Positions 78 to 43,600 of a DNA stretch of 43,600 bases are shown one piece after another (position 1 is the first letter of the stretch; each line of letters begins with the position of its first letter). The translations under genes were made by a program, and so were the position numbers. The DNA lies in IMG/VR virus record IMGVR_UViG_3300020467_000001, positions 1 to 43,600 of that record; one strand, given 5' to 3'. The DNA is from a virus. A model generated the notes under the pieces. The model was not told the DNA's origin, made no database searches, and saw nothing but the letters and a program-made list of their open reading frames with translations.

Positions 78-206
78 ATGAAAGCCTGCGAGTTTATATC
101 CCATTGAAGAACCACCACCACAATGGAAGCAGCTAAAAACTTTAAAACCGTTCTTTTTTATTCCAGAAAGATCGGTCAGGTGCCACGGCCCTTTAATTTT
201 TTCCAT
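1..206 (-). CDS. C5-cytosine DNA methyltransferase, N-terminal part (continues at 43600)
   Basis: The leftward frame starts with ATG at 206 and runs off base 1 into the copy that ends at 42674. Joined across the circle it gives 351 residues. This part holds motif I (FSCFHCGGGSSMG, about residues 24-36), the S-adenosylmethionine-binding loop, and the following acidic residue in VEID. The ATG overlaps the last 14 bases of the ParB-fold gene, so the two are probably translated together. The start was chosen because it is the first ATG before motif I at the usual distance. The gene is broken only by the way the circle was opened. Confidence 0.9.
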   Translation of the reverse strand, partial: MEKIKGPWHLTDLSGIKKNGFKVFSCFHCGGGSSMGYKLAGFHVLGGVEIDPEMMALYRANHNPKHSF

Positions 207-696
207 CAAATTCAAATCCACATCTAGGGCAAGTGTGTTGGAAGTTATCAAAATCTTCTTCTGATTGTTCTTGTGATCCTTCGTATTCCTTGATATCAGT
301 TTGACCCAGCAAGTTTTCTAAGTCTTCTTCGTCAAACCAAGGACTGACATCATGGGTTTGAGAAAGGTTGTGCAGCATCTCCCGATCCCAATCGGATAAA
401 TCACTTGTTCTGTTATCAGCCAAAGCTAAACCAATTTTTTGCTCTTCTGTTAATCCTGTTCTTTTTATTGCAATTACTTCTGATCCATCTGCTTCAATTA
501 CGCGGACGTTTTTAACACCATTTGCTTTTGCCCCTTCAACAGTTCCATTACCAGCAAGAATACGATTATCTTCATCAATGACTATTGAGCGACCTGTTCC
601 ATAACGTTGAATAGATTCTTTTATAAGAGAAGCAGATCGGTCAGTTCTTTTCCGAGCATTTTGAGGATCAGGCTTAAGGTCTTGTATTGAAGTCAT
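193..696 (-). CDS. ParB-fold protein with C-terminal zinc-knuckle-like CPRC
   Basis: 167 residues. The N-terminal half has the ParB/sulfiredoxin signature: LKPDPQNAR near residue 7, a helix with SLIKESIQRYG, then VIDEDNRILAGNGTVEGA, and later LALADNRTSDLSDWD. The C-terminus ends in HTCPRCGFEF, a single Cys-x2-Cys pair that may bind zinc as a dimer or be a half ribbon. ParB-fold proteins of this size are common in phages beside DNA methyltransferases and terminases; their exact role is unsettled, and CTP- or DNA-binding is inference. It is the first gene of the leftward run and lies downstream of the palindrome at 724-736, which probably controls it. Confidence 0.85.
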   Translation of the reverse strand: MTSIQDLKPDPQNARKRTDRSASLIKESIQRYGTGRSIVIDEDNRILAGNGTVEGAKANGVKNVRVIEADGSEVIAIKRTGLTEEQKIGLALADNRTSDLSDWDREMLHNLSQTHDVSPWFDEEDLENLLGQTDIKEYEGSQEQSEEDFDNFQHTCPRCGFEFDGKN

Positions 697-723: not shown

Positions 724-736
724 ATCTTACTAAGAT
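724..736 (-). promoter_or_regulatory. Palindromic promoter/operator site A (leftward, ParB)
   Basis: ATCTTACTAAGAT is a perfect 6-1-6 inverted repeat and matches the recurring site of this genome. Read leftward, its TAAGAT half is a -10-like element 27 bases before the ParB ATG. No good -35 is seen at 17 bp. Confidence 0.65.
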
Positions 737-773
737 TGCAACAAACCGCATCAAAAAGAAAAAGAAGGGCATT

Positions 774-786
774 ATCTCAATAAGAT
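774..786 (+). promoter_or_regulatory. Palindromic promoter/operator site B
   Basis: ATCTCAATAAGAT, one mismatch in the left half-site. TAAGAT (781-786) is a -10-like element 23 bases before the ATG at 810. The TGTACA -35 box found at other sites is missing here. AAAAACCAC (801-809) directly abuts the start codon. Confidence 0.6.
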
Positions 787-809
787 TAAAGAGTCAGTTT
801 AAAAACCAC

Positions 810-1178
810 ATGACAAAACTTACTTTTCGCTCTTCTACAGAACTCAGAAAACTAGCGGAAGAAACCCTTTCAAATTCTAAATTCAAAATTCCTTATCAAG
901 AAAAACACACTTCTGAAAAAGGTTTTTGGTTAGTAAAGGATGAAGGAGTTTATTTAATGAACTCATTCAAAAGAAATCCTAAAAATTTAATTTCTTATGC
1001 AGTTGGATACAAACCAACAAAAGCAAACAGAGATTCACTTTGGAATAAAACACACAAAGTTAGCCCAGATGACTTTGCAGAATTTATCCCATTAAATTCA
1101 CAACAACTTGAAAGGCTTTCAAAAAATGGATATGTAACAATCCATCTTTCTGCAACTGAATTAACAGTTGAAGCTTAA
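810..1178 (+). CDS. Early protein resembling DUF3085
   Basis: 122 residues, soluble, no membrane segment. The central block KGFWLVKDEGVYLMNS followed by a tyrosine-rich strand and a D-F-x-E-F-I-P segment resembles the DUF3085 family, whose function is unknown. It is the first gene of the rightward early region, led by palindrome site B and an AAAAACCAC leader with no Shine-Dalgarno, and is followed by a weak terminator. A host-takeover or regulatory role would be guesswork. Family match is from memory and moderately sure. Confidence 0.75.
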   Translation: MTKLTFRSSTELRKLAEETLSNSKFKIPYQEKHTSEKGFWLVKDEGVYLMNSFKRNPKNLISYAVGYKPTKANRDSLWNKTHKVSPDDFAEFIPLNSQQLERLSKNGYVTIHLSATELTVEA

Positions 1179-1182
1179 AAAA

Positions 1183-1212
1183 AAAGCCCTCTTTTTTAAA
1201 GGGGGTTTTTTA
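1183..1212 (+). terminator. Possible intrinsic terminator after 810-1178
   Basis: A run of A, then GCCCT, a T-rich loop, AGGGGG and T6. The stem is short and has a bulge, but the A/T runs fit a factor-independent terminator. Confidence 0.5.
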
Positions 1213-1232
1213 ATGCAAAAAAATATTGACTA

Positions 1233-1261
1233 TGTACAAAACAAGATAATCTTATTAAGAT
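1233..1261 (+). promoter_or_regulatory. TGTACA-N17-TAAGAT promoter with palindrome (before 1312)
   Basis: -35 TGTACA at 1233-1238, -10 TAAGAT at 1256-1261, exact 17-bp spacer. The perfect 6-1-6 palindrome ATCTTATTAAGAT (1249-1261) covers the -10. GTACAAA lies 8 bases before the palindrome, as at three other sites. Confidence 0.75.
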
Positions 1262-1311
1262 AACTGTATAAGAATTTATTTCTTATTTCCAAAAACCACA
1301 CGGAGTTTCAA

Positions 1312-1461
1312 ATGGGTCAACTTGCTGACAGCCTCAGAGAAATCGTTCAAACAATGAAAGATGGCGACGAGGTTTTTAGACAGAACATTAAAGAGATTGA
1401 AAAAGCTGCAAATGAATTAACTAAAGCAGCCGACAATTTGATTGAATCAATCGAAGACTAA
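1312..1461 (+). CDS. Small early helical protein, 49 aa
   Basis: 49 residues, almost wholly predicted helix with an acidic end: heptad-like hydrophobic spacing through IVQTMKDGDEVF and IEKAANELTKAADNLI suggests a short coiled coil. It is one of few early genes with a clear Shine-Dalgarno (GGAG, 7 bases before ATG). It forms a complete single-gene unit with its own promoter (1233-1261) and a strong terminator (1467-1490), which supports it as a real gene. No family recognised; a small protein binding a host partner is one possibility. Confidence 0.75.
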   Translation: MGQLADSLREIVQTMKDGDEVFRQNIKEIEKAANELTKAADNLIESIED

Positions 1462-1466
1462 ACAAC

Positions 1467-1490
1467 AGCCCCTTCGGGGGCTTTTTATTT
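1467..1490 (+). terminator. Strong intrinsic terminator
   Basis: GCCCC-TTCG-GGGGC stem with a UUCG tetraloop, extended by one A-T pair, then T5-A-T5. It closes the 1312 unit. Confidence 0.93.
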
Positions 1491-1516
1491 TTCCTACATT
1501 TACCCCCCTATAAAAA

Positions 1517-1849
1517 ATGTCTAACGAAATTAGATGGATTAAAGGCAGCCTTCATAGAGAAACTTCTGCTGGAAGTTGGGAACCTATTGAAACAACAGCA
1601 ACAAATGATGCTGAAATTGCCTATCGATCTATCCAACGACTCCTTTTATCAATTACAAATGGAGAAATAAGAAAAGCTGGATTAACTCGCTCTGAATTAA
1701 ATCCTTTAATAGAAGCTCTTGATACTCTTCAAGCCATAAAGACTAATAACGATAAGTGCTTAGAAGATGAGCTTAAGCCTAATCCTTGGACTGAAGCAGC
1801 AAATGCTGATGGGTATTTATTTGATGAATACAACGAAATTGCAAAGTAA
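1517..1849 (+). CDS. Early hypothetical protein, 110 aa
   Basis: 110 residues. The N-terminus has a Trp-rich strand pattern (IRWIKGSLHRETSAGSWEPI), followed by a helical region (AYRSIQRLLLSITNGEIRKAGL) that could pack as a helix pair. The start ATG lies only about 26 bases after the preceding terminator's T-run, with CTATAAAAA just before it and no Shine-Dalgarno, so the message may have a very short leader. No family recognised and no function suggested. Confidence 0.7.
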   Translation: MSNEIRWIKGSLHRETSAGSWEPIETTATNDAEIAYRSIQRLLLSITNGEIRKAGLTRSELNPLIEALDTLQAIKTNNDKCLEDELKPNPWTEAANADGYLFDEYNEIAK

Positions 1850-1850
1850 G

Positions 1851-1879
1851 TGTACAAAGGTTCCTAATCTTATTAAGAT
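1851..1879 (+). promoter_or_regulatory. TGTACA-N17-TAAGAT promoter with palindrome (before DUF2958)
   Basis: -35 TGTACA 1851-1856, -10 TAAGAT 1874-1879, 17-bp spacer; perfect palindrome ATCTTATTAAGAT at 1867-1879. AAAAACCACA (1893-1902) then abuts the ATG at 1903. Confidence 0.77.
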
Positions 1880-1902
1880 TAAATTGTTCAATAAAAACCA
1901 CA

Positions 1903-2181
1903 ATGAAGCTATTAACAAAAGCTCTTGAGAAAAAGCTCCCTGCTTTACATTCGGCAACTGGTAAAGCTTTCGTCAAATGGTTTACTCCTGATGCTAATTG
2001 GACTTGGTATGTAATGGAGTATGACCCCAAAACCGGAGAATGCTTTGGTTTGGTTGACGGTCTTGAAAAAGAGTTTGGCTACTTCACACTTAATCAAGTA
2101 CAAGAAGTAAGAGGCAAATTCGGACTACCAGTTGAAAGAGATTTGTTGTTTGAGACAACAGACGTTAAGGAATTGGTTTAA
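1903..2181 (+). CDS. DUF2958 family protein
   Basis: 92 residues. The order LLTKALEKKLPALHS, KWFTPDANWTWYVMEYDP, FGLVDGLEKEFGYFTL, and VRGKFGLPVERDLLF is the DUF2958 signature over the whole length. The family is widespread on phages and mobile elements; no biochemical function is established. The leader is AAAAACCACA with no Shine-Dalgarno. The stop codon overlaps the ATG of the next small gene (TAATG), and a terminator hairpin follows at once, so most transcripts probably end there. Confidence 0.93.
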   Translation: MKLLTKALEKKLPALHSATGKAFVKWFTPDANWTWYVMEYDPKTGECFGLVDGLEKEFGYFTLNQVQEVRGKFGLPVERDLLFETTDVKELV

Positions 2182-2312
2182 TGAGATTCCTTTTATTTGC
2201 CGCCTTCGGGGCGGTTCTTTTTTGGGGTGTTAATTCATCTCTTTCCGATATGACTAAACACGATTGTGAGGTCAACAAAATCCAATTAGCTTGCGAGTCT
2301 TTAAGAAAATGA
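2181..2312 (+). CDS. Small membrane-anchored protein, 43 aa
   Basis: 43 residues: one N-terminal hydrophobic segment (FLLFAAFGAVLFW, residues 3-15), then a short polar tail with two cysteines (DCEVNKIQLAC) that could form a disulphide outside the membrane. It overlaps both neighbours: TAATG with the DUF2958 gene and ATGA with the ParB-fold gene at 2309, the pattern of translational coupling. A terminator hairpin lies inside it (2200-2223), so it may be read only on read-through messages. Signal peptide or single-pass anchor cannot be told apart. Confidence 0.6.
   Translation: MRFLLFAAFGAVLFWGVNSSLSDMTKHDCEVNKIQLACESLRK
2200..2223 (+). terminator. Intrinsic terminator inside the 43-aa gene
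   Basis: CCGCC-TTCGG-GGCGG stem followed by TTCTTTTTT. It lies within codons 7-15 of the 2181 gene and probably attenuates transcription into the ParB-fold gene downstream. Confidence 0.85.
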
Positions 2313-3268
2313 GAACAAGAAGAACAAGAAGGTCGTCAAACATTACTGAGATTAAAAAGCTTAGAAAACCCGACCTTGACTATTCAAAAGTAACTTTTGA
2401 TGTTGAATTAATCGACAAAGAAAAAGCTTTAGAGTATTTAGAAACTAATTTTGAAAACAACAGAAAGATTAGATCTTCTAGTGTTGCTCAAATAGTTAGT
2501 GACATAAAAGACGGCAATTTTCACTTAAGTTGGGACTGTCTTGCTTTTAATGAATTAGGCCAATTAGTTAATGGTCAACACCGATTATCGGCTGTTGTTG
2601 TAGCAGATATTCCTTGTCATTTTAATGTTTTAAGGAACATTGATCACACAACAGTTAAGCATTTTGATATTGGTAACAAGCGAAGTCAAGCTGATCGTAT
2701 TGCTGTTCATGGAACACCTATGCACCCTAAAGCTTGTGCAGTTATTAAAGCTTCATTTGGCGATTGGGATGCAAATTTTACAGGATCAGCCAAGTTTGCT
2801 AACTCAAAATATGATGATTTAATTGCCTCTTATTACAAAAGACACTCAGAATATTTTGAACAACTTGAAGCAGACGGGTACTTAAGAGCTAAATACATTG
2901 GGAACTATGTTTCTTCTGCTTTTAAAATTTTCTTAGAAATGAAAGTAGGAAAAGCACGCTTTAACGAGTTTCCTCATGGAATGGAACCTTATGAGAGAAG
3001 CGCTTATTGGTTGGATTTATGTATTGATGGCAAATCAAAAAACCACATGATTGACTACAACACAGATCAAATTCCATTTAAGTTAAAAGAAAAGCTAATT
3101 GCTAGAAAAGGTTTAGGTAAAACCATGTATGGGCAAGACGCTTTCAAGCTTTATTGCACTGCTGCCTATTACTTTATGCAAGGAAGAGCACCTGCTTTAA
3201 GAGTTGACAATATGACAAAAGATCCTTTTAGCGTCTTTAGAGGTATTCCATTAACTAACGAGAAATAG
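2309..3268 (+). CDS. ParB-fold/DGQHR-like protein
   Basis: 319 residues from the ATG at 2309. An in-frame TTG at 2291 is possible, but the ATGA overlap with the preceding stop favours 2309. A basic N-terminus (RTRRTRRSS) is followed by a domain with LVNGQHRLSA (NGQHRL at residues 88-93), the hallmark of the DGQHR/ParB-fold group seen in DndB-like and many phage proteins, then a helical C-terminal region. Possible roles are DNA binding or regulation of phage DNA metabolism. It is unrelated in detail to the ParB-fold protein at 193-696. Confidence 0.75.
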   Translation: MRTRRTRRSSNITEIKKLRKPDLDYSKVTFDVELIDKEKALEYLETNFENNRKIRSSSVAQIVSDIKDGNFHLSWDCLAFNELGQLVNGQHRLSAVVVADIPCHFNVLRNIDHTTVKHFDIGNKRSQADRIAVHGTPMHPKACAVIKASFGDWDANFTGSAKFANSKYDDLIASYYKRHSEYFEQLEADGYLRAKYIGNYVSSAFKIFLEMKVGKARFNEFPHGMEPYERSAYWLDLCIDGKSKNHMIDYNTDQIPFKLKEKLIARKGLGKTMYGQDAFKLYCTAAYYFMQGRAPALRVDNMTKDPFSVFRGIPLTNEK

Positions 3269-3270
3269 AA

Positions 3271-3456
3271 ATGACAACTCAAAAAGAGATGGATACTCGA
3301 ATTAAAATCCAACGATTGGAATATGTTCTTGACCTTCTTTGCCAAGAAGCAGATCGACAGATTTGTGTTTTTTTACCGGAGAAGCTGGAAGAACAAATTC
3401 CTTACCTAAAGAAAGAGATTAAACTAACTTTAGACAGAATAAATGATGGACATTAA
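3271..3456 (+). CDS. Small helical early protein, 61 aa
   Basis: 61 residues, strongly helical with a mixed-charge heptad pattern (RIKIQRLEYVLDLLCQEA and LEEQIPYLKKEIKLTL), a likely coiled-coil pair. It starts three bases after the stop of the ParB-fold gene and overlaps the next gene by 14 bases, so it sits in one operon with both. No family recognised. Confidence 0.7.
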   Translation: MTTQKEMDTRIKIQRLEYVLDLLCQEADRQICVFLPEKLEEQIPYLKKEIKLTLDRINDGH

Positions 3457-3625
3457 AAAAATTCCTGAGTCCATGCCTCTTGAGTACCTTGATCCAAAGG
3501 TACTCAAAGAGCTAAAAACAGAAGATTGGTCAGGTTTAGCTTTTCAAAGAAAATGGTCTAATCAAAAGCTCGGGAAAGAAATAATTAAAGCAGGAAAACT
3601 TATTTACGAGAAGGACTGGACTTAG
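3443..3625 (+). CDS. Small early protein, 60 aa
   Basis: 60 residues; two ATG codons in tandem (3443, 3446) could start it. It overlaps the previous gene by 14 bases. The sequence is mostly helical with a basic C-terminal half (WSNQKLGKEIIKAGKLIYEKDW) and no cysteine or membrane segment. It is the last gene of the 1903-3625 unit. Function unknown. Confidence 0.65.
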   Translation: MMDIKKIPESMPLEYLDPKVLKELKTEDWSGLAFQRKWSNQKLGKEIIKAGKLIYEKDWT

Positions 3626-3828
3626 TTTTGGGGCGTTAGCCGTGACTTTCTTTCCATTTTTCACGACAAAAAAAGTTAAGTTAGTGGTTTTTCTTTCTTT
3701 TTTGCTATGTAAGACCCCTAAACAAATACAAAGAAACCGCATCAAAACGCATCAATTTTAAAAACCACGCTTACGACTTCAAATAATCTCAATAATATTA
3801 AAGAGTAAAAACCACACAGGTCTTTTAA
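3626..3828. other. Longest non-coding stretch (203 bp)
   Basis: No credible frame. It holds AAACCGCATCAAAA (3734-3747), which also occurs at 743-756, an AAAAACCACG copy near 3759-3768, and palindrome site 3786-3798 before the next gene. A 5-bp CGTGA/TCACG inverted repeat near 3645 lacks a T-run on the correct side and is not a convincing terminator. Confidence 0.6.
3786..3798 (+). promoter_or_regulatory. Degenerate palindromic site before 3829
   Basis: ATCTCAATAATAT keeps 11 of 13 consensus positions; TAATAT (3793-3798) is a good -10. No TGTACA at 17 bp. AAAAACCACA (3807-3816) follows. Confidence 0.55.
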
Positions 3829-4083
3829 ATGGCTAAAAAACCATTCTCTCACATAAACCCAGCTACTAACAAAGTTTGGAACCGTGACGAGTTATTCAAA
3901 GCTTTTCAAGCAGAACAAGCTAAGAATAAAAAAAGCAATTCAGGTATTATCACTTGGAACGCTCAACAAACCAATCTGATTAAAAGATGGGAAATTCACA
4001 CAACAGAATTTAATTCAGCTGTTCGTGATCTTCGTCAAGCAACTCAGATGACCCGCAAAATGTTTGATAAAACTTTTGCTTAA
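3829..4083 (+). CDS. Early basic protein, 84 aa
   Basis: 84 residues, lysine/arginine-rich (many K, R, Q, N), helical, no cysteine. The basic surface and small size would suit a nucleic-acid-binding protein, but no motif proves it. It is a single-gene unit: palindromic promoter before it and a strong terminator 7 bases after it. AAAAACCACACAGG lies upstream of the ATG. Confidence 0.72.
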   Translation: MAKKPFSHINPATNKVWNRDELFKAFQAEQAKNKKSNSGIITWNAQQTNLIKRWEIHTTEFNSAVRDLRQATQMTRKMFDKTFA

Positions 4084-4090
4084 CTAAAAC

Positions 4091-4117
4091 GGCTCCCGAA
4101 AGGGGGCCTTTTTTTTT
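4091..4117 (+). terminator. Strong intrinsic terminator after 3829-4083
   Basis: GGCTCCC-GAAA-GGGGGCC stem (one G-T pair) with GNRA loop, then nine T. Confidence 0.93.
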
Positions 4118-4143
4118 GCCTTGCAACAGTAAAGATGCAATTG

Positions 4144-4172
4144 TGTACAAATAGAATTATTCTTAATAAGAT
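4144..4172 (+). promoter_or_regulatory. TGTACA-N17-TAAGAT promoter (before 4199)
   Basis: -35 TGTACA 4144-4149, -10 TAAGAT 4167-4172, 17-bp spacer. Palindrome TTCTTAATAAGAT at 4160-4172 has one mismatch. AAAAACCACA (4188-4197) sits one base before the ATG. Confidence 0.75.
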
Positions 4173-4198
4173 TAAAGAGTTCAATAAAAAAACCACAA

Positions 4199-4429
4199 AT
4201 GTCTTGCCCAGTTGAATCAGATTTAAACCGCCACCTCGAACAACTTGATATTCAAGCAAGAGAGGAAAAACATGCGGAAGACAATCCAGGTTATTACTGG
4301 TTCATCACAACTAACAAATGGGATGAACATGCTTATTCAGAAGACGAGAAGAACGAACTTATTGCAGATGCAAAAAAAGAAGGTCTTACTTGGTCTTGCA
4401 CAAAGCACATTGAAGGAGAATCTTACTAA
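4199..4429 (+). CDS. Early acidic protein, 76 aa
   Basis: 76 residues, acidic, with an aromatic centre (NPGYYWFITTNKWDEHAY) flanked by two helices; one Cys near each end. Not recognised. First gene of a unit that runs 4199-5210 with TAATG overlaps between the first three genes, so translation is coupled. Leader AAAAACCACA, no Shine-Dalgarno. Confidence 0.72.
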   Translation: MSCPVESDLNRHLEQLDIQAREEKHAEDNPGYYWFITTNKWDEHAYSEDEKNELIADAKKEGLTWSCTKHIEGESY

Positions 4430-4887
4430 TGACAAAAGAAACAACAAACCTTGGGCCAATCGCTCAAGGTTTTTTAAATCATTTAACTACAGGTCTTGAA
4501 CTTTTTGATTTAGATTTCAACAAGTTTGATCCTTTTTTTGCTGTTCATCAAGATTACGGCAAAGGAATTATTTTTAATCAAGTCCAAATTAAAGGACGTG
4601 GTAAATATAAATTCAAAAGAGGAGAAAACAAAAATCTATTTTTAATTAGTATTGATGAAAAATCAATAAGATGGCCTGCTGTAAAAAATAGTGGAAGCTT
4701 TCCTATTGGACATGGAAAGCAAGACAACAATCCACAAGAAGCTGCTTTATTAGTTCTATCAGCAATTGTTAGAAAAATGCCAATCTACCCATTACCATTG
4801 TGCGAAACTTGTTCAAAAACTAAAGCACAAGAAATTGTAGATGGAGTTGTTGAAATTTCAGTAGAAGAATTACAAGGAAAAAAATAA
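4429..4887 (+). CDS. Early hypothetical protein, 152 aa
   Basis: 152 residues; starts within the stop of the previous gene (TAATG). The middle is beta-rich (GKGIIFNQVQIKGRGKYKFKRG), and the C-terminal third has a Cys-x2-Cys (LCETCSKTKA) that might bind metal as a dimer. No family recognised. Co-transcribed with 4199 and the two small genes that follow. Confidence 0.72.
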   Translation: MTKETTNLGPIAQGFLNHLTTGLELFDLDFNKFDPFFAVHQDYGKGIIFNQVQIKGRGKYKFKRGENKNLFLISIDEKSIRWPAVKNSGSFPIGHGKQDNNPQEAALLVLSAIVRKMPIYPLPLCETCSKTKAQEIVDGVVEISVEELQGKK

Positions 4888-5030
4888 TGGATTGTTTTGA
4901 TAAAGATGAATCTAAATTAATTCTCGAAGCTTTAAATGCTTATTTAGATTGGGATGATGATGTGTACAACATAGAAATACACAAGCTAATCAATAAAATT
5001 AATTATATTATTGAGATTAATGAACGCTAA
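4887..5030 (+). CDS. Small acidic protein, 47 aa
   Basis: 47 residues, start ATG at 4887 inside the preceding TAA (TAATG). Helical, with a run of acidic residues (LDWDDDVYNIE) and an Ile-rich C-terminus (HKLINKINYIIEINE). The tight overlap and the next gene 3 bases later support it. Function unknown. Confidence 0.6.
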   Translation: MDCFDKDESKLILEALNAYLDWDDDVYNIEIHKLINKINYIIEINER

Positions 5031-5033
5031 GTA

Positions 5034-5210
5034 ATGCCAAACAAAACAAGAGGCAGTGAATTATGGAGTGAAATCCTTCAAGTAAGTGTCACTCCAGAAG
5101 TCAAAAAACAGATCGCTCGATTAGCTATTGATGCGAACACAAGCCAGAGCAATGTTGTCCGCGAACTTTTAAATCAGGCACTTGGGCGAGAACCTTTTGC
5201 AGCCGATTGA
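5034..5210 (+). CDS. Ribbon-helix-helix (CopG/Arc-like) DNA-binding protein
   Basis: 58 residues. The pattern is classic RHH: strand ILQVSVT (residues 14-20), helix PEVKKQIARLAIDAN, turn TSQS, second helix NVVRELLNQAL (to about 50). RHH dimers bind short inverted or tandem sites through the strand. As one of only two recognisable DNA-binding regulators here (with 6345-6659), it is a candidate for binding the repeated 13-bp palindrome, but that link is inference. Its last 86 bases overlap the tail of an opposing gene. Confidence 0.82.
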   Translation: MPNKTRGSELWSEILQVSVTPEVKKQIARLAIDANTSQSNVVRELLNQALGREPFAAD

Positions 5211-5319
5211 CTTGATCTAAAAGTCGATCACCTCTTTCTATTGCTTCAGCAGCAACTTGAAAAGGATCAACCCCATAACATTGGAGATCTTTTTTAATTT
5301 GTTGAGTCCTAGTGGTCAT
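5125..5319 (-). CDS. Leftward small helical protein, 64 aa
   Basis: 64 residues from ATG 5319 (TTG at 5325 also in frame). The first 40 residues read as a real helical protein (DPFQVAAEAIERGDRLLDQV); the last 25 overlap the RHH gene in antisense and look less protein-like. AGAGG lies 9 bases before the ATG, and a perfect TATAAT lies at 5357-5352 upstream. It is the only leftward gene in the early block besides 8882-9217. Function unknown; could antagonise or be controlled with the RHH gene. Confidence 0.6.
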   Translation of the reverse strand: MTTRTQQIKKDLQCYGVDPFQVAAEAIERGDRLLDQVNRLQKVLAQVPDLKVRGQHCSGLCSHQ

Positions 5320-5351
5320 TGGCAAAGGCCTCTGAGCTTCAGGTCAAGTAC

Positions 5352-5357
5352 ATTATA
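5352..5357 (-). promoter_or_regulatory. Leftward -10 box TATAAT
   Basis: Perfect TATAAT preceded by TG, about 33 bases before the leftward ATG at 5319. A weak TTGCAA lies 19 bp upstream. Plausible sigma-70-type promoter. Confidence 0.5.
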
Positions 5358-5422
5358 CATATCGACACAAACAACATTGCAATTTATTTCAATAAGGGTG
5401 GCCTCCAAAAACTGCATACAGC

Positions 5423-6070
5423 ATGATTAAGCATGAAATATGCATAAAAACCCCACATTTAGTACATTCAATGCCCACTAAAAACGTCCCAATTGATGAA
5501 GGTTTATTATCAGCCTGTCAAACAGAAAAGCCTCCTTGGCTTTCTACCACTGCCTTTGTGAACGAAATGGTTTCACAAGGATTAAAAGGGGTTGCAGAGC
5601 ACGTTACCCTTAAAGTACCTAGCGGTACAGAGACACACAAAAAAGAACGAAAGAAAGAAAACAAAAGCGACGGTACTTTATCTAATACAAATAGAGTATC
5701 TAATAGTATAAATAAAGAAAAAGAAATTTTTAAAAAAACAAGGTTTAAATTCAGTAAAGAATTAATTCCTTTTGAACTTCAATCTTTATCAACTTTGATT
5801 GAGGATTTTTGGTATAGCAAAAAAGGAAAAAAGACAGAAGCAGCTTTTGATTTATTAATGAGTGAAAAAGGTTTATTAGGAATAAAGAAGAAATATGGAG
5901 AGACAGCAGCTAGAGAACAACTTGAATTAGCTATTGCCAGTGAGTGGCAAAGCATCCTTTTAAAAAACCATGAAAACTTTTCAGTAAGTAAAAAACCAGC
6001 ATGGAACCCTGAACCAACAGCCGGACATCCTGCACAACGCGTCTTTACGGCTTCCAGAGGCTTCGATTAA
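5423..6070 (+). CDS. Hypothetical two-part protein, 215 aa
   Basis: 215 residues (start 5423; ATG 5471 also possible). The N-terminal 60 residues include LSTTAFVNEMVSQGLKGVAE, which is helix-turn-helix- or RHH-like. A lysine/serine-rich linker follows (residues 70-105), then a helical C-terminal domain with IEDFWYSKKGKKTEAAFD and IASEWQSILL. This layout recalls phage replication or loader-type accessory proteins, but no ATPase or primase motif is present. It begins the run 5423-7784, in which genes overlap or lie within 5 bases of each other. A degenerate palindrome (5386-5398) lies upstream. Confidence 0.7.
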   Translation: MIKHEICIKTPHLVHSMPTKNVPIDEGLLSACQTEKPPWLSTTAFVNEMVSQGLKGVAEHVTLKVPSGTETHKKERKKENKSDGTLSNTNRVSNSINKEKEIFKKTRFKFSKELIPFELQSLSTLIEDFWYSKKGKKTEAAFDLLMSEKGLLGIKKKYGETAAREQLELAIASEWQSILLKNHENFSVSKKPAWNPEPTAGHPAQRVFTASRGFD

Positions 6071-6342
6071 TGGAACCCTTATATAACAAAGCCTCGGTCA
6101 TCAAACTGCTCAAACGAGGTCTAAAAAGCCCAAACCCTTCAAATCCAGAAAAACCACTTTGGACTCTTGAAGATTTAGACAAACCAAGTCCAGGTGCTCA
6201 ACGGTGTATTGATGATGCAAATTCTAATCTTGCAATCTTTTCTAGAGGTTACGAAGGTGTGAGATTTAAAAACCTTGCAAGAGAAGCAACACCTCCTACT
6301 GAATCAGTAGAACTTGTAGACCCTAAAGATTTTCCTGCATAA
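6070..6342 (+). CDS. Hypothetical protein, 90 aa
   Basis: 90 residues; ATG overlaps the previous stop (TAATG). Proline-rich, few long helices (SPNPSNPEKPLWTLEDLDKP), acidic C-terminus. Looks partly disordered. In the same transcript as the nuclease and RusA genes. Not recognised. Confidence 0.68.
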   Translation: MEPLYNKASVIKLLKRGLKSPNPSNPEKPLWTLEDLDKPSPGAQRCIDDANSNLAIFSRGYEGVRFKNLAREATPPTESVELVDPKDFPA

Positions 6343-6344
6343 AA

Positions 6345-6659
6345 ATGAATTACTACAACACCACAAAAGAAACAGGTTCAGAACTTGCTGAATCTCATGA
6401 AAAAGCTAAAACTCAAGGCGAAAAAATTTTGGCTTGTTTTAATTCTTATAACGAACCTATGAGTCCCTCAATGGTTCTTGCTCGAGCAGGACTTAATTGT
6501 CCAATCACATCAATTAGACGAGCAATGACAAATTTATCTAATGAAGGCCACCTTGAAAAAACAGATGACTATGTTTTTGGAATGTATTCAAAAAGAGAAC
6601 ATCTTTGGACTTTACCAACAGAAAAAAATTACAGCCAACCTAGTTTGAAACTGATTTAA
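6345..6659 (+). CDS. Winged-helix DNA-binding protein
   Basis: 104 residues. Residues 25-75 fit a winged helix: GEKILACFNSYNEPMSPSMV, a turn with ARAGLNCPITSIRRAMTNL as the recognition helix, then NEGHLEKTDD as the wing. Such small proteins in phage recombination operons are usually transcription regulators. Starts two bases after the previous stop. Candidate regulator of the early promoters, along with the RHH protein; target unknown. Confidence 0.72.
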   Translation: MNYYNTTKETGSELAESHEKAKTQGEKILACFNSYNEPMSPSMVLARAGLNCPITSIRRAMTNLSNEGHLEKTDDYVFGMYSKREHLWTLPTEKNYSQPSLKLI

Positions 6660-6663
6660 AAAA

Positions 6664-7341
6664 ATGAGATACCAAGAACTAAGTAACAATCCAAGTCTTC
6701 ACCGTGACCCACCTTGGAGCCATTTGAGACTTACTCCACTTCCCATGTATCGGGATGAAGAACGCCATCAATATTGTTGGGAACCAACAGGCGAATGGTT
6801 AGCTTTTTCTACTACACAAATTTCAAGTCAAAAAAGCCCAGAGGCTTTAGCAAACATTGAAAGATACAGGCACATCTGGCAACCCAGAGGGGAAAAAGTG
6901 CATTGGTGTTTAGAACAAAAAATGTTAGGCGACCCAAATCCTGACCCTGGAGAATATAAAGAATGGGTAACACCACTTCTTGAAGAAAAATTTTGGATGA
7001 ACTTCGAACCTTGGGCAGTTGAATACATGCTGGCAGATTTAGAAAAGTCAGTAGGCGGTCAGTTTGATCTTTTAGGTTATGACCATGATTTAGGACAATT
7101 AGTTTTAATAGATTTAAAAACTCAATCTAAGAAAAATGCAAAACCATATTCAACTGATGCTCAATTAGGAAGCTATGTAGAAGCCCTTGCAAATCATCAT
7201 GGAATAGTAGTTGATAGTTGCAGGACAGTTTGGGCAAGACCTGGCAAATGCACAATTGGAGACCATCAAGATCCATTAACTTGTCGTTTAAAATGGAACG
7301 AAGCTTGGGAAAACTTTGAAGATAATAGGGAAGCATTTTGA
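6664..7341 (+). CDS. PD-(D/E)XK nuclease (Cas4/RecB-like exonuclease)
   Basis: 225 residues. Catalytic layout: His80 in KVHWCLEQ, then GGQFDLLGYD with Asp135, then LVLIDLKTQ with Asp150-x-Lys152, and YSTDAQLGSYVEAL as the Q-x3-Y motif (Gln167, Tyr171). This is the RecB/Cas4/lambda-Exo-type core. No Fe-S cysteine cluster as in Cas4 is seen. Beside Erf, SSB-like and RusA genes, it most likely resects DNA ends for single-strand annealing. The stop overlaps the TTG start of RusA. Confidence 0.85.
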   Translation: MRYQELSNNPSLHRDPPWSHLRLTPLPMYRDEERHQYCWEPTGEWLAFSTTQISSQKSPEALANIERYRHIWQPRGEKVHWCLEQKMLGDPNPDPGEYKEWVTPLLEEKFWMNFEPWAVEYMLADLEKSVGGQFDLLGYDHDLGQLVLIDLKTQSKKNAKPYSTDAQLGSYVEALANHHGIVVDSCRTVWARPGKCTIGDHQDPLTCRLKWNEAWENFEDNREAF

Positions 7342-7784
7342 GTTCAATTACTATTCGAGTTATTGGTATTCCAGGCGCTCAAGGTTCAAAACGTGTAACT
7401 CGTTATGGAGCTTTAATTGAAAATTCAAAAAAAGTACATCCTTGGCGACAAGATATAAGGCATGCATGTTTAGAAGCTTATCAAGATGATCCAATTGATA
7501 AGGCTTGCATAGTTACAATAACTTTTCGATTTCCTCGTCCTAAATCACATTTTGGAACAGGAAAAAATAAAAACAAATTAAAACCTTCAGCCCCTGAATT
7601 TTTAACAAGTCATGCTAGTGGTGACATTGATAAATTATGCAGAAGCACACTTGATGGATTGTCGATGACATCAGGGGGAACAGTATTAAAAGATGATAGT
7701 TTTGTTATTTCAATTACTGCAACAAAGAAATACGTTGTAAAGAACGAATTACCGGGGGCAACTATTGAAATATTTCCTTTATAG
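7338..7784 (+). CDS. rusA: RusA-family Holliday junction resolvase
   Basis: 148 residues. The RusA core is present: basic N-terminal strand IRVIGIPGAQGSKRV, then SGDIDKLCRSTLDGL with Asp96, Asp98 and Asp106, and LKDDSFV with Asp119-Asp120, the metal-binding acids. It resolves four-way junctions made during recombination or replication of phage DNA before packaging. The start is TTG at 7338, within TTGA of the upstream stop; no better ATG lies before the first conserved strand. Last gene of its operon. Confidence 0.9.
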   Translation: MSSITIRVIGIPGAQGSKRVTRYGALIENSKKVHPWRQDIRHACLEAYQDDPIDKACIVTITFRFPRPKSHFGTGKNKNKLKPSAPEFLTSHASGDIDKLCRSTLDGLSMTSGGTVLKDDSFVISITATKKYVVKNELPGATIEIFPL

Positions 7785-7786
7785 GG

Positions 7787-7815
7787 TGTACAAATGGATC
7801 TATTCTTATTAAGAT
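7787..7815 (+). promoter_or_regulatory. TGTACA-N17-TAAGAT promoter (before Erf)
   Basis: -35 TGTACA 7787-7792, -10 TAAGAT 7810-7815, 17-bp spacer. Palindrome TTCTTATTAAGAT (7803-7815), one mismatch. Here the leader lacks AAAAACCACA. Confidence 0.75.
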
Positions 7816-7837
7816 TAAATAGTTCCTCTAATCGCTT

Positions 7838-8530
7838 ATGGCTGTTGCTACAAAAGCACCATCAAGCCTAGCTGAAGCTCTTGCAAAATTCCAACAAGAA
7901 CATCATGCTGCTGGCAAAGATGGGAAAGCTAATTATGGTTTTTATACCACACTTGCAGGTGGATTAAATGCAGTCCAACCCGCAACTCATTTAGGTTTAT
8001 GTCATACACAAACCTTTGACTCTGTTATCACTAATGACGGTAAAGTTATTACTGTTTTAGTTACAACTTTAAAACATGTTGGCGGAGAAGAAGTAGTAAG
8101 TCGTTTGCCTTTTCCTGAATTGGTTCCTAATCGAGGGAACATTATGCAGGCTCTAGGTTCAGCAGTTACTTATGCAAGACGTTATGCACTTTTAGCTATT
8201 TATGGTTTAGCAGGAGATGATGATGACGCAGAAGGATCAGGTTCAGCACCAAAAGTTGAACAAAAAAAAGGAATTACTAGAACTCCAACTGCTCCAAAGC
8301 AATCACAATTTATTGCTCCAGCTTTCAAATCTCAAATTGAAAATGATTTAAGAGATCTTGATTCAGTGCAAAGATCACTTGCTCTTGAGCAGTTTAAAAA
8401 GAAGTTTAATATTTCGGCTAAAGCAATTTCACCAAATCACATTACAACAAATGAACATGGTGAGTTCTTAGTCAAAATGATTAAAGTCTACAAAGACGCA
8501 AAAGAACAAGTTTTAGAGAATGACTCCTGA
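7838..8530 (+). CDS. erf: Erf-type single-strand annealing recombinase
   Basis: 230 residues. Residues 30-130 carry the ERF family signature: NYGFYTTLAGGLNAVQPA, TTLKHVGGEEVVSRLPFP, GSAVTYARRYALLAIYGLAG and then the acidic DDDDAE. A linker and a helical C-terminal domain follow. Erf proteins form rings that anneal complementary single strands; with the nuclease at 6664 and the SSB-like protein next door this makes a self-contained recombination system, which could also help circularise or concatenate the genome. It has its own promoter. Confidence 0.93.
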   Translation: MAVATKAPSSLAEALAKFQQEHHAAGKDGKANYGFYTTLAGGLNAVQPATHLGLCHTQTFDSVITNDGKVITVLVTTLKHVGGEEVVSRLPFPELVPNRGNIMQALGSAVTYARRYALLAIYGLAGDDDDAEGSGSAPKVEQKKGITRTPTAPKQSQFIAPAFKSQIENDLRDLDSVQRSLALEQFKKKFNISAKAISPNHITTNEHGEFLVKMIKVYKDAKEQVLENDS

Positions 8531-13286: not shown

Positions 13287-13838
13287 TTACTTAAAGTAAT
13301 TGAAATTTAAAACAATCCTTGCTGGTTGATCTGTTGAACTAACTCCACTATGGTAGCAATTTCCTCTAAAAGTAAGCATACGATTTTCTATGCTTTCAAT
13401 TTTAGTTCCATCTAAAAATTCTGTATAACCATTATTAGTATTAATATAAAAAATTGAAGTGTAATTATCTTCAAAAGCATCAACATGAAAACCTGAAAGA
13501 ATATGATCTGTTGTTTGCGACGTTAAATTTGCTTTGATTTTAATTAACGCTTTTCCTTTTAAAAGATTGTAAATTGGTTCAATATAGTTTTGAAAATAAG
13601 TACATGTAGGAATATTATTATAATAAAATAAATGAACAAATTGATAATTAAAATTACTTTGGCAAAAAGATTGTTTAATTTTTTCTTTTACTTTTTTATT
13701 ATCTACTTGGGTTGATATTTCTTTATCCTCATCGTTTAAAATTTGACTAAAATGCCACGAAAACATTGGAGAAGTTATTAAATCTTTTACTTTTATAAAA
13801 TCATCTTGGTCTAAAAAATTATCTATACAACTAATCAT
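13287..13838 (-). CDS. 2OG-Fe(II) oxygenase-like protein
   Basis: 183 residues. The iron triad is visible: His118-x-Asp120 in GFHVD and distal His163 in CYHSG, with Arg174 eleven residues later as the likely 2-oxoglutarate anchor, in a double-stranded beta-helix context (TSIFYINTNNGYTEF). The family hydroxylates protein, nucleic-acid or small-molecule substrates; substrate here unknown. Overlaps its upstream neighbour by ATGA. Unlike the two oxygenase-like genes at 14299 and 14998, it is leftward and lies among membrane-protein genes. Confidence 0.8.
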   Translation of the reverse strand: MISCIDNFLDQDDFIKVKDLITSPMFSWHFSQILNDEDKEISTQVDNKKVKEKIKQSFCQSNFNYQFVHLFYYNNIPTCTYFQNYIEPIYNLLKGKALIKIKANLTSQTTDHILSGFHVDAFEDNYTSIFYINTNNGYTEFLDGTKIESIENRMLTFRGNCYHSGVSSTDQPARIVLNFNYFK

Positions 13839-14041
13839 CTTGCGAATGGATTAACACTGCCAGTAGAAGACGGAACGCTTGGAATTTCTGGCATAGCACT
13901 TTGTACCAAGGCAGGAAGTTCTTTCTTAACGCCATCTAATACAGCGTCAAATATTTTTGATCTGTAAAAAAAAGCCCCACCTAACCCTGCAACGCCAAGA
14001 ATAAAAGCAGCAAAATTAATCCAAGTAATAATTTTTATCAT
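13835..14041 (-). CDS. Small single-pass membrane protein, 68 aa
   Basis: 68 residues from ATG 14041 (a TTG at 14050 is in frame, but the ATGA overlap with the previous stop decides). One membrane helix (WINFAAFILGVAGLGGAFFY, about 7-26), then an amphipathic and proline-rich tail ending in NPFAR. From memory very similar small proteins occur in marine cyanomyoviruses. Could be a holin, spanin part or envelope factor. Confidence 0.7.
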   Translation of the reverse strand: MIKIITWINFAAFILGVAGLGGAFFYRSKIFDAVLDGVKKELPALVQSAMPEIPSVPSSTGSVNPFAR

Positions 14042-14223
14042 GCAGGGCAAGCCTCGCCATTGCTAGGTTTGTGGGCTTCTTTTGCCAAATTGTTTAGATC
14101 TTCTTTAAGTTTTACAACCCTTTCAGTGCTTTCTTTAAATCTATTTTGCAAATCAAGTTGAATTTGCTCCTCTTGAGCCATTTGTGCTCCAAGTTCTGCA
14201 AGGCGTTCCTGCATGTCAGCCAT
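14038..14223 (-). CDS. Coiled-coil protein, 61 aa
   Basis: 61 residues; continuous heptad pattern from residue 3 to about 50 (ERLAELGAQMAQEEQIQLDL; ERVVKLKEDLNNLAKEA). No membrane segment. First gene of the leftward unit 14223-11925, coupled to the membrane protein that follows. Faces the rightward gene 14299 across a shared inverted repeat. Confidence 0.7.
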   Translation of the reverse strand: MADMQERLAELGAQMAQEEQIQLDLQNRFKESTERVVKLKEDLNNLAKEAHKPSNGEACPA

Positions 14224-14245
14224 AAGTAAAGTAATTTATTTCTAA

Positions 14246-14279
14246 AACTATAGCAAGGCTTGACCAGTTCGCTATAGTT
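14246..14279. promoter_or_regulatory. 9-bp inverted repeat between divergent genes
   Basis: AACTATAGC (14246-14254) and GCTATAGTT (14271-14279) are perfect inverted arms around 16 bases. Each arm, read outward, has a TATAGT -10-like box, toward 14223 and toward 14299. Looks like a two-way promoter/operator. Confidence 0.6.
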
Positions 14280-14298
14280 CTCTTGTTAAAAACAATTT

Positions 14299-14997
14299 AT
14301 GAAATCTTTTCCTGTTTTATTTATTGATGATTTTTTCCCTGACGTTGAATACGTTTTAAATATTGCCAAAAACACAGAGTACGAAGTAAAACGTTCCAGT
14401 GCTACAGGTGTAACTTCAAGCTTAGGCTTAGAAAAATTAGATTTAGGATTGCATAACTACATAACAGAAAAAGTAATATCTATTTTTTGGCCTCCTAATG
14501 ACTACATCGCAAATTGCAATCTTACAATAGATTTTCATAAAATTGATTCTTTTAAATCAACAAATCAAACCTTTAACAAAGGAGCAATTCACTGTGACAA
14601 CGTTTTCGGAGCAGATCTTACTGTAATTATTTACTTAAGCGACCATAAAGAAACTAATGTAGGAACAAGTTTTTACGAAAGAAAACAAGATGTCTTTCTG
14701 CAAGGACATACTTATGTAGAAGACTTTCAAAATGCTTTACAAGCATATAATCAAGATAAAGAAATAACAGAAGAAAGAGAAATTATTTTTAATAAATACT
14801 TTGATAACTTTAAAGAAACCGCAAAAATTCAAAACAAACAAAACAGAGCTGTTATTTTTCCATCTAACCTCTGGCATGGTGTAACATCTTTTACAGAAGA
14901 AACAAGGTATGTAGCAAGATTAATACTTTTCCCGTCTAATGTTCAATGTAAATATAACAATAACTATTCAATAAATCCATTAGACAGAATTAATTAA
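14299..14997 (+). CDS. 2OG-Fe(II) oxygenase-like protein (DUF6445-like), copy 1
   Basis: 232 residues. Opens with FPVLFIDDFFPD, then a beta core with the iron triad His98-x-Asp100 (AIHCD), GTSFYE, distal His193 (LWHG) and Arg207 (VARLIL) as cosubstrate anchor. Resembles, from memory, the DUF6445 group of the 2OG-oxygenase superfamily seen in marine phages. Ends in the base before the ATG of its paralogue. Substrate unknown; modification of phage fibre or host surface is a guess. Confidence 0.8.
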   Translation: MKSFPVLFIDDFFPDVEYVLNIAKNTEYEVKRSSATGVTSSLGLEKLDLGLHNYITEKVISIFWPPNDYIANCNLTIDFHKIDSFKSTNQTFNKGAIHCDNVFGADLTVIIYLSDHKETNVGTSFYERKQDVFLQGHTYVEDFQNALQAYNQDKEITEEREIIFNKYFDNFKETAKIQNKQNRAVIFPSNLWHGVTSFTEETRYVARLILFPSNVQCKYNNNYSINPLDRIN

Positions 14998-15675
14998 ATG
15001 TCTTTCCCTGTTACTGTTGTAGACAATTTTTTCCCTGATCCAGAAAAAATTATTGAATTTTCTAATACTCTTAAATATGTAAAAGATGAATATGGTGGCG
15101 GCAGATGGCCTGGAATAAGATGTGATAATTTAGCAACTATTAACGACCAACGATGTTATGATTTTGGTCAATATGTTATTAGAAAAGTAAATAGTTTATT
15201 TTGGCAAGACCAAGTTGAAAATACGGTTGCTTCATTACATTTTCAAAAAATTAAACCTTTTGTAAAAGAAAAAAAAGATCAATTTGATCCTACAAATACA
15301 GGATGGATACACAAAGATTACAAACAGCTTGCAGGATTAGTTTATCTTTCTAAAGATCCTCAAGAAAACACAGGAACATCTATTTATAATTTTAAAAATG
15401 GTATTTATAATTATTATCAAGAAGACTTAAACTATAAAAGAAAGCTTTACAGTGGAAAACCTTTTGACAAAAAAGAATATATAAAAGCTTTTGAACGTAA
15501 TCAATCGTATTTTTATGAAACAATAAATATAAAAAACGTATATAACAGATTACTTTTGTTTAATGGACAACAATTTCATGCTGCACAAACATTTGGTTAT
15601 GGAGAAAAAGAACGATTAACTTTAAATATTTTTATAGATGATCATTTCCCAGCCACACCTCCATTTGCAAGATAG
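14998..15675 (+). CDS. 2OG-Fe(II) oxygenase-like protein (DUF6445-like), copy 2
   Basis: 225 residues, clear paralogue of 14299: FPVTVVDNFFPDPEKI start, His105-x-Asp107 (WIHKD), GTSIYNF, distal His194 (QQFHA), Arg206. All metal ligands are kept, so both copies may be active on different substrates. Directly adjacent to copy 1; followed by a terminator-like hairpin. Confidence 0.8.
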   Translation: MSFPVTVVDNFFPDPEKIIEFSNTLKYVKDEYGGGRWPGIRCDNLATINDQRCYDFGQYVIRKVNSLFWQDQVENTVASLHFQKIKPFVKEKKDQFDPTNTGWIHKDYKQLAGLVYLSKDPQENTGTSIYNFKNGIYNYYQEDLNYKRKLYSGKPFDKKEYIKAFERNQSYFYETINIKNVYNRLLLFNGQQFHAAQTFGYGEKERLTLNIFIDDHFPATPPFAR

Positions 15676-36697: not shown

Positions 36698-36726
36698 TTT
36701 GCAAAAGTCACTAATCTTATTAAGAT
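36698..36726 (+). promoter_or_regulatory. Early-type promoter inside the late region
   Basis: TTTGCA (36698-36703) - N17 - TAAGAT (36721-36726), with the perfect palindrome ATCTTATTAAGAT at 36714-36726. Same layout as the early promoters. It points rightward against late transcription. Confidence 0.72.
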
Positions 36727-36738
36727 AGAGAAAAACTA

Positions 36739-36903
36739 ATGGCAAAAGAAAAACGTGACTCAAGCCGTTTTACAGATGTAAATATTGGCTATTCTGTTGA
36801 CACAGAAGATAAAAGAACAAAAAAGGAAATTTTGAAAGATATGGAAAAAAATGGAGTTAAAGTTATTCGTGCATCAAAAAGACCTCCTGAAGCTTCTTTT
36901 TAA
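36739..36903 (+). CDS. Lone rightward small gene in the late operon, 54 aa
   Basis: 54 residues: KEKRDSSRFTDVNIGYSVDT, then EILKDMEKNGVKVIRASKRP and PPEASF at the end. Highly charged, no membrane segment, not recognised. It has its own palindromic promoter and reads against all neighbours for 16 kb. Its TAA overlaps the stop of the MuF gene (TTAA 36900-36903). Behaves like a moron or early gene placed inside the structural block. Confidence 0.68.
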   Translation: MAKEKRDSSRFTDVNIGYSVDTEDKRTKKEILKDMEKNGVKVIRASKRPPEASF

Positions 36904-42684: not shown

Positions 42685-43600
42685 TTGAAGCCTCCATTGG
42701 CTTTAACCAATTTTCAAGAATTTCTAAAGCAACCCTTTGAGTCATAAATGGTGGAACACTCATTCCCATGACATAAGAAGGTTCTGACTTAAGAAAATTG
42801 TAATCCTCTGGAAAAGTTTGAATACGAAGTAATTCCCCAGAACTAAAATGTCTAGGTTTATCCCACCTTATAGGGATTCCAGGCTGACTTGCAGTTAATG
42901 TTGATGTTGGTCTATATGGATTGGCAACACTAAAGTTAAAGTAGTGCCCTTTAGGATGAACTTTTGATAAAGAATCGCCTGGTTTAGTTTTTTCCCAAAG
43001 AGCTTTCACTTTTGGCGATAAAGCATGTGTCTTACCGTGATTAATAACATCTTTAATTGCATTTGAACAAGGTATTGGCTTTTCTTTAAATATTGGTTTT
43101 ATAGGTGGAAGGTTTAAATCATTCCGTCTAGCAAGAAAAAAAGTTCTTTCTCTTGCTTGAGGAACCCCCATTTTTGCTGAGTTAAAAAGGAATAATTGAG
43201 TTGAATATCCAGCTTCACGAAAGGCCGTAAAAATTTCTTTCACATATCCTTTGGCATTACCCGCAATTAAACCTTTAACATTTTCAGCCACAATTATTTT
43301 AGGCTGAAGCCTTTTTCCTACTTCAATAAAATGACCAAAAAGATCATCTAGCTTTTGCTTTTTTTGACCTTCACGGAAATAATTTTCTTTGCCCCATTTC
43401 TTTTCACGCTTGCCAGCCATGCTAAAAACTGAACAAGGTGGAGACCCATCAAGAATGTCTAAATCTTTTAATTCATCAGGAATTTCTTCTAAAGGAATTT
43501 TATTAAAATCTTGAACGCCCATTAAAAAACTATGTTTCGGATTATGGTTTGCTCGATATAAAGCCATCATTTCTGGATCTATTTCAACACCACCTAAGAC
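42674..43600 (-). CDS. C5-cytosine DNA methyltransferase, main part (starts at 206 across the join)
   Basis: Residues 44-351 of the 351-residue enzyme. All key motifs: PPC with Cys99 nucleophile in DGSPPCSVFSMAG, Glu149-Asn150-Val151, GVPQARERTFFLARR (Gln191, Arg193, Arg195), target region, FSSGELLRIQTFPEDY and the end motif YVMGMSVPPF. Complete and probably active. No restriction enzyme is nearby, so it is an orphan that may protect phage DNA from host restriction or mark the packaging site beside TerS. The true start lies at 206 through the circle join. Confidence 0.94.
   Translation of the reverse strand, partial: VLGGVEIDPEMMALYRANHNPKHSFLMGVQDFNKIPLEEIPDELKDLDILDGSPPCSVFSMAGKREKKWGKENYFREGQKKQKLDDLFGHFIEVGKRLQPKIIVAENVKGLIAGNAKGYVKEIFTAFREAGYSTQLFLFNSAKMGVPQARERTFFLARRNDLNLPPIKPIFKEKPIPCSNAIKDVINHGKTHALSPKVKALWEKTKPGDSLSKVHPKGHYFNFSVANPYRPTSTLTASQPGIPIRWDKPRHFSSGELLRIQTFPEDYNFLKSEPSYVMGMSVPPFMTQRVALEILENWLKPMEASNGS
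43524..43600. repeat. Terminal direct repeat, right copy
   Basis: Exact copy of bases 1-77. Removing one copy gives a circle of about 43,523 bp in which the methyltransferase gene is intact. Confidence 0.95.

Follow-up and report, generated by a model that had tools for sequence, protein, structure and literature searches.

Palindrome copies and promoters in the virus record

The window analysed here is the whole of a virus record from IMG/VR (IMGVR_UViG_3300020467_000001; 43.6 kb, all 43,600 nt), and all coordinates of palindromes, promoters and genes refer to it. Our subject is a short palindrome that recurs at the heads of its early genes, together with a small ribbon-helix-helix (RHH) protein encoded among them. 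The first and last 77 bp of the record (1-77 and 43524-43600) are identical, so that it is probably a complete genome in which the late run joins up with the ParB-like gene across the record ends. Siphovirus-type terminase, portal, head, tape-measure and tail proteins are encoded in the window. Among phage records, the portal is closest to those of siphoviruses of marine Synechococcus and Prochlorococcus (61-75%), and a picocyanobacterial host is likely. Megablast searches of phage DNA records with the two parts of the window gave no match.

The features discussed below are the following, with clade contigs denoting related contigs that carry the palindrome or the RHH gene.

193-696, minus strand: ParB-like gene at the head of the minus-strand late run (its start adjoins the 724 site; terminal repeat)
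724-736, minus strand: operator-like copy ATCTTACTAAGAT in the gap that separates the early run from the divergent ParB-led run; its TAAGAT reads on the minus strand (site in 9 of 11 clade contigs)
774-786, plus strand: degenerate copy ATCTCAATAAGAT before the gene 810-1178, with nothing like a -35 box at 17 bp
1247-1263, plus strand: candidate operator (17 bp) over the -10 box TAAGAT (1256-1261), with TGTACA at 1233-1238, before the gene of a 49-aa protein (1312-1461; 10 of 10 clade contigs)
1865-1881, plus strand: candidate operator over the -10 box TAAGAT (1874-1879), with TGTACA at 1851-1856, before the gene 1903-2181 (DUF2958; 10 of 11 clade contigs)
3786-3798, plus strand: degenerate copy ATCTCAATAATAT before the gene 3829-4083 (3 of 3 clade contigs at 2 mismatches)
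4158-4174, plus strand: candidate operator over the -10 box TAAGAT (4167-4172), with TGTACA at 4144-4149, before the genes 4199-4429 and 4429-4887 (9 of 11 clade contigs)
5005-5017, plus strand: off-consensus copy ATATTATTGAGAT, 16 nt before the RHH gene (a site precedes all 21 RHH genes examined)
5034-5210, plus strand: RHH protein, 58 aa, the proposed repressor (Pfam RHH_1, PHROG Arc-like repressor, co-occurrence)
6345-6659, plus strand: winged-helix-like protein (weak HTH_IclR match below the cut-off), disfavoured as the binder
7801-7817, plus strand: candidate operator over the -10 box TAAGAT (7810-7815), with TGTACA at 7787-7792, before the Erf-like gene 7838-8530 (13 of 13 clade contigs)
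36712-36728, plus strand: candidate operator over the -10 box TAAGAT (36721-36726), with TTTGCA at 36698-36703, before the lone plus-strand gene 36739-36903 (3 of 3 clade contigs)

A preliminary description of this DNA had listed eight copies of the palindrome. Five of them (1249, 1867, 4160, 7803 and 36714) are exact copies of WTCTTAWTAAGAT, but the other three are not: the copy at 724 has C at the centre (one mismatch to WTCTTAWTAAGAT), the one at 774 also has one mismatch, and the one at 3786 has two. The site at 5005, directly upstream of the RHH gene, was not in that list and has two mismatches. At up to two mismatches, the window yields 28 strand-matches against 12.56 +/- 3.74 expected (the maximum in 100 shuffles was 24), and therefore a lone two-mismatch copy, in the window alone, tells little. 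When the centre base is ignored and at most one arm mismatch is allowed, seven sites are found against 0.15 expected (20 Markov shuffles).

The spacing described earlier was reproduced. TGTACA lies exactly 17 bp before TAAGAT four times (1233, 1851, 4144 and 7787; 0.00 expected), and at the same four sites GTACAAA lies exactly 8 bp before the palindrome. A longer form of the pattern occurs four times exactly and once, at 36698, with two mismatches (0.01 expected); the -35 position of the 36714 site reads TTTGCA. Paired -35 and -10 boxes at ~17 bp, as in sigma-70 promoters, are present at the four TGTACA sites and, with TTGACA/T, at the erf promoter of relatives, while 724 and 774 do not fit.

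Conservation and placement among relatives

Relatives were found by three routes, with the motif, the Erf protein and the RHH protein as queries. Contigs fetched by the motif are biased toward it; those from the Erf and RHH routes are not. The Erf route gave 18 loci, in ten of which the palindrome is present (one mismatch allowed); eight lack it. In addition, we ran a gene-anchored test on 17 clade contigs and 13 others, which looked within 110 nt of every gene start and scored the best-matching 13-mer there, however poor it was. As membership of the clade is defined by the site or the RHH gene, the cleaner test is the comparison, within the clade, of operon-first with internal genes.

Sites with up to two mismatches were found before erf (13/13), RHH (11/11), 1312 (10/10), 1903 (10/11), 4199 (9/11), ParB (9/11), 3829 (3/3), 36739 (3/3) and 810 (1/1). 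Few or none preceded the other clade genes: 1517 (1/12), 2291 (0/5), 4429 (0/1), 5423 (0/10), 6070 (0/12), 6345 (0/10), exonuclease (0/12), RusA (0/13), 8590 (0/13; ssb was among the genes tested) and portal (0/8). Outside the clade, there were no sites before any gene with a homologue there (erf, 0/9). The palindrome overlaps the -10 box, is conserved among relatives and heads most early units, much as had been proposed.

Comparison of relatives shows a 17-bp palindrome, TAATCTTAWTAAGATTA. Among 63 non-redundant of 99 sites, conservation extends from -8 to +8 about the centre (TAATCTTA-W-TAAGATTA). Since the sites were picked by their 13-bp core, information is to be had from the outer bases and the spacer alone: the bases at -8, -7, +7 and +8 carry 1.2-1.6 bits, and the spacer from -13 to -9 at most 0.14 bits. 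Some sites were counted once in each orientation, and the two outer arms therefore resemble each other a little more than they otherwise would.

The -35 box of the erf promoter varies. In 13 contigs, including the window, it is TGTACA in five, TTGACT in four, TTGACA in three and TTTACA in one, always at 17 bp. The fixed promoter set of the preliminary description stands as regards its constant spacing, but TGTACA is just one of several -35 versions. The pattern that would have spoken against an operator, namely loss of the palindrome with retention of the -35 and -10 boxes, is reversed: the palindrome is kept and the -35 sequence changes among relatives. A scan of viral_contigs for TTKACW placed 8 bp before the 17-bp operator found 29 stretches, counted as 26 contigs; with the distance set at 10 bp as a spacing control, it found none.

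In a sister lineage, the -35 box lies within a second operator copy 22 bp upstream, TAATCTTATTGACATTA, which differs from the operator by two bases, the ones creating TTGACA. The left arm occurs exactly at -22 bp with up to one mismatch in 17 of 21 non-redundant TTGA-type promoters (14 exact, 4 misses; chance, 0.7% per place), and this second copy is found in none of ten TGTACA-type promoters and none of eight of other types.

These data bear on the possibility that the palindrome is a quirk of the core promoter, a two-way -10 box with no bound regulator. TAAGAT does match four of six bases of the -10 consensus and can be read on both strands. However, the left arm and the outer bases are conserved over 17 bp, beyond what a -10 box needs, and the second copy recurs 22 bp upstream. 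Moreover, in our reading of the upstream sequences, five relatives without the RHH gene have a promoter before erf (TTGATT or TTGACC, 17 bp, TAGACT) and no palindrome, while in four other such contigs no promoter before erf could be read. A core-promoter quirk thus seems extremely improbable. Two-way promoters were also rejected, as the opposite-strand readings of the listed window sites match at most three of six bases at the -35 position.

Several other short words accompany these promoters. The leader motif AAAACCAC stands directly before early-gene start codons (at 803, 1293, 1895, 3809 and 4190), and of 62 promoter-type clade sites (redundancy not thinned) 56 have CCAC in the 62 nt that follow, compared with 10.6% of random 62-mers; the leader motif may have a role in translation or RNA binding. 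Another recurring word, CCGCATCAAAA (740-760 and 3745-3760), lies upstream of the ATCTCA-type sites that have no -35 box, similar words (GCATCAAA) occupy the matching place in relatives, and words of this type could be activator sites. By eye, two contigs without the RHH gene, L025 (about 7450-7470) and L027 (upstream of 440), have another palindrome, ATGTAGATTACAT, over the -10 box of TTGACA-17-TAGATT before the 5423 homologue, perhaps a different operator.

The RHH protein and other candidate regulators

The preliminary description named two candidate binders, the RHH protein (5034) and the winged-helix protein (6345). The former fits, and the latter fits less well: two relatives have another protein in its place and yet retain the palindrome. 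Downstream of the 4158 operator come the genes 4199-4429 and 4429-4887 and then, in the same orientation, the RHH gene. The product of the RHH gene matches PF01402 RHH_1 (E 4.6e-6, 26.8 bits against a cut-off of 20.5) and the PHROG family of Arc-like repressors (E 2.4e-4), and Q-[VT]-S-V-T is conserved in an alignment of 20 longer RHH sequences. Searches further afield found little: tblastn against the phages collection gave no match at E 0.01, the RHH profile against PDB sequences gave none that was convincing (best E 0.048), and Foldseek of the structural model gave nothing at E 0.001 or better.

The site and the RHH gene go together. The RHH profile finds the protein in 7 of 16 and 13 of 20 whole records, and the palindrome is present in all 20 RHH-bearing records among these 36. 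Nine of the 36 have neither (four uncultured records of 14-41 kb, four isolates and one single-cell record). Eleven contigs were new from a scan for the double operator, and ten of them carry RHH, in one case as just 12 residues at the contig end; among 13 further short contigs from the TTKACW scan one carries it, the sole one matching the flanking genes 4199 and 5423. A site with up to two mismatches stands 15-46 nt before the start of every one of the 21 RHH genes examined, one of these genes being cut at a contig end. At 17 of these 21 sites the left arm is ATATTA, off the consensus, which we read as weaker control of RHH by itself.

We consider it probable, from sequence, that the palindrome is the operator of the phage RHH protein (5034-5210), placed over the -10 box of sigma-70-type promoters of most early operons, and that RHH is a self-limiting early repressor of the Arc/CopG kind. 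At infection, host RNA polymerase would read the bare DNA through the -35 box, the 17-bp spacer and TAAGAT. RHH, made among the early genes, would accumulate, and its dimers, presumably two per operator, would bind the half-sites ATCT and AGAT, five A/T bases apart, and by covering the -10 box would obstruct polymerase at the early promoters. The weaker, off-consensus site before the RHH gene would limit RHH synthesis. As RHH is encoded among the early genes, negative feedback ending early transcription would be the natural reading. The sites, their spacing, operon-first placement, conservation and co-occurrence with RHH are seen in the sequence itself, whereas binding by RHH, repression, its timing and the transcription starts are inferred.

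Several observations weigh against this interpretation. Proteins of the RHH (MetJ/Arc/CopG) superfamily fold as strand-helix-helix, form intertwined dimers and contact their operators through the N-terminal strand. The AlphaFold2 monomer of RHH has helices at 21-33 and 38-49 and no strand (pLDDT 77), and its structural matches are weak (PutA, Z 5.5; Arc, Z 5.1; CopG, Z 5.0). Seven of the 36 records, all of them fragments of 4.4-9.7 kb, have the palindrome and no RHH. Gene 4199 co-occurs with the site as tightly as RHH does, with no DNA-binding match in profile scans. The co-occurrence could also stem from common ancestry, the RHH family having been seen here in a single lineage only. In many relatives, the site before the RHH gene directly follows a terminator-like hairpin (by eye), which complicates the picture of how RHH is transcribed. 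Finally, 724 and 774 have no -35-like hexamer at 17 bp, and among 99 sites read on both strands the -35 position is TGTACA in 20 and TTGACA in 19 only; therefore, not every site is a standard promoter. The earlier proposal was of one phage regulator switching all early units; a single phage-encoded regulator fits, with the palindrome at the start of most of them.

RHH could also bind the site in another role, as an immunity (prophage) repressor or as an activator of some promoters, rather than to shut off early genes. Immunity repressors of mycobacteriophages typically have dispersed operators (excerpt of PMC9283540), the RHH protein AmrZ both activates and represses (excerpt of PMC3325190), and the sites at 724 and 774, having no -35 box, could require an activator. 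On the other hand, 50 window proteins scanned against PHROGs, with some small open reading frames (ORFs) left out, include no integrase, excisionase or CI-type match, which makes immunity less likely, and sites overlapping the -10 box favour repression. We regard such roles as unlikely.

The winged-helix-like protein at 6345 could in principle be the binder, and it is present in 10 of 17 clade contigs. Its place in L021 and L022 is taken by an unrelated-looking 113-aa protein (MarR_2, above the cut-off in L021 only), with the palindrome kept, and this led us to disfavour 6345, although a far-diverged 6345 homologue in these two contigs would limit the argument from replacement. Besides, the palindrome is absent before the 6345 gene in ten of ten clade contigs, and 6345 as the binder appears very improbable. 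It is decidedly unlikely, too, that a host regulator binds the palindrome and that the phage borrowed a host site. Host RNA polymerase presumably reads these promoters, but the phage isolates of marine Synechococcus and Prochlorococcus whose portals are related lack any site when one mismatch is allowed, and the site goes with the RHH gene.

Repeated 11-mers were sought in six contigs without the RHH gene; in five of them none had at least four copies, and G010 had two A/T-rich ones. In L025, a 55-aa protein at the RHH place looks RHH-like by eye. Pfam gave nothing for it at E up to 1, and tblastn on 30 contigs returned only itself and two partial matches at E 0.8; given this, we make no claim of a swapped regulator.

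Known systems, the late run and neighbouring genes

RHH repressors, operators over promoters and dispersed phage operators are known kinds. The operators of Arc and CopG overlap a promoter, as does the palindrome described here. Arc of phage P22 and CopG of the plasmid pMV158 family resemble the present case in combining a small RHH protein with symmetric half-sites and a 5-bp linker, and the minor groove is narrowed at the linkers of both operators (excerpt of PMC3325190). In contrast to these, the site recurs here at many early promoters within one genome, the operator is ATCT-TAWTA-AGAT, and RHH has no close sequence relative in PDB.

The stoperators of mycobacteriophages are similar in that one phage immunity repressor has many dispersed sites (excerpt of PMC9283540). 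However, stoperators are asymmetric and bound by a monomer, whereas the present sites are palindromes that precede operon-first genes and are absent ahead of the internal genes tested. We rejected stoperators accordingly: the sites are not asymmetric, and a survey of gene starts, rather than of individual sites within genes, gave 0 of 10-13 contigs with one before each of g5423, g6070, wHTH, exo, rusA and ssb. The YefM-YoeB operator is also a palindrome over a -10 box, and its operator cores are TGTACA (excerpt of PMC4803016). Here, by contrast, TGTACA behaves like a -35 box, being swapped for TTTACA or TTGACA/T at the same promoter in relatives, and the 13-17 bp operator is a different sequence. 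The cyanosiphoviruses KBS-S-2A, S-H1, MED4-117 and P-HS2 have portals 61-75% identical to that of the window but no RHH of this family and no palindrome at up to one mismatch.

Among the matches listed in open-access literature on cyanophage repressors and palindromes, cyanosiphoviruses, RHH operators and stoperators, we found no phage with early promoters built throughout from one RHH operator and no described regulator for this phage lineage. There seems to be about an even chance that such a lineage is seen here, in which the 17-bp operator of the repressor supplies the -10 box, its second copy two helical turns upstream supplies the -35 box in the sister lineage, one 58-aa RHH protein governs most early units, and the -35 box with the second operator is exchanged with TGTACA or TTTACA, the circuit being kept. 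If so, the whole phage would be run by a very simple circuit of one tiny self-limiting repressor and an operator word doubling as promoter, and an early transcription programme could be deduced for an uncultured marine phage group. Natural promoter variants would show operators and core promoter boxes evolving inside each other, and the site together with RHH would serve as a marker for the lineage in metagenomes.

The regulator had also been proposed to switch the ParB-led late run. The ParB-like gene does start beside the 724 site, whose minus-strand TAAGAT lies 27 nt before the start codon, and conserved GATGCG and TTGCAA stretches lie upstream of this site. But there is no -35 box at 17 bp, and the palindrome is absent before the ParB gene in two of 11 clade contigs (c30450 and c29448, both with RHH and ParB). 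Control of the late run is therefore uncertain, and palindrome control of it is weakly supported. Nor does the 36714 copy face the late run; it is directed at the small plus-strand gene 36739-36903.

This lone gene, with its own operator-promoter (36698-36903), lies between minus-strand scaffold and head genes, and similar small genes stand behind a palindrome in G001, G002, G003, G004, G012 and G015. Elsewhere in the window, in the region 13287-15675, two adjacent genes (14299 and 14998), each matching phrog_1644 and, weakly, phrog_274, come after an endonuclease V-like gene (13287-13838).

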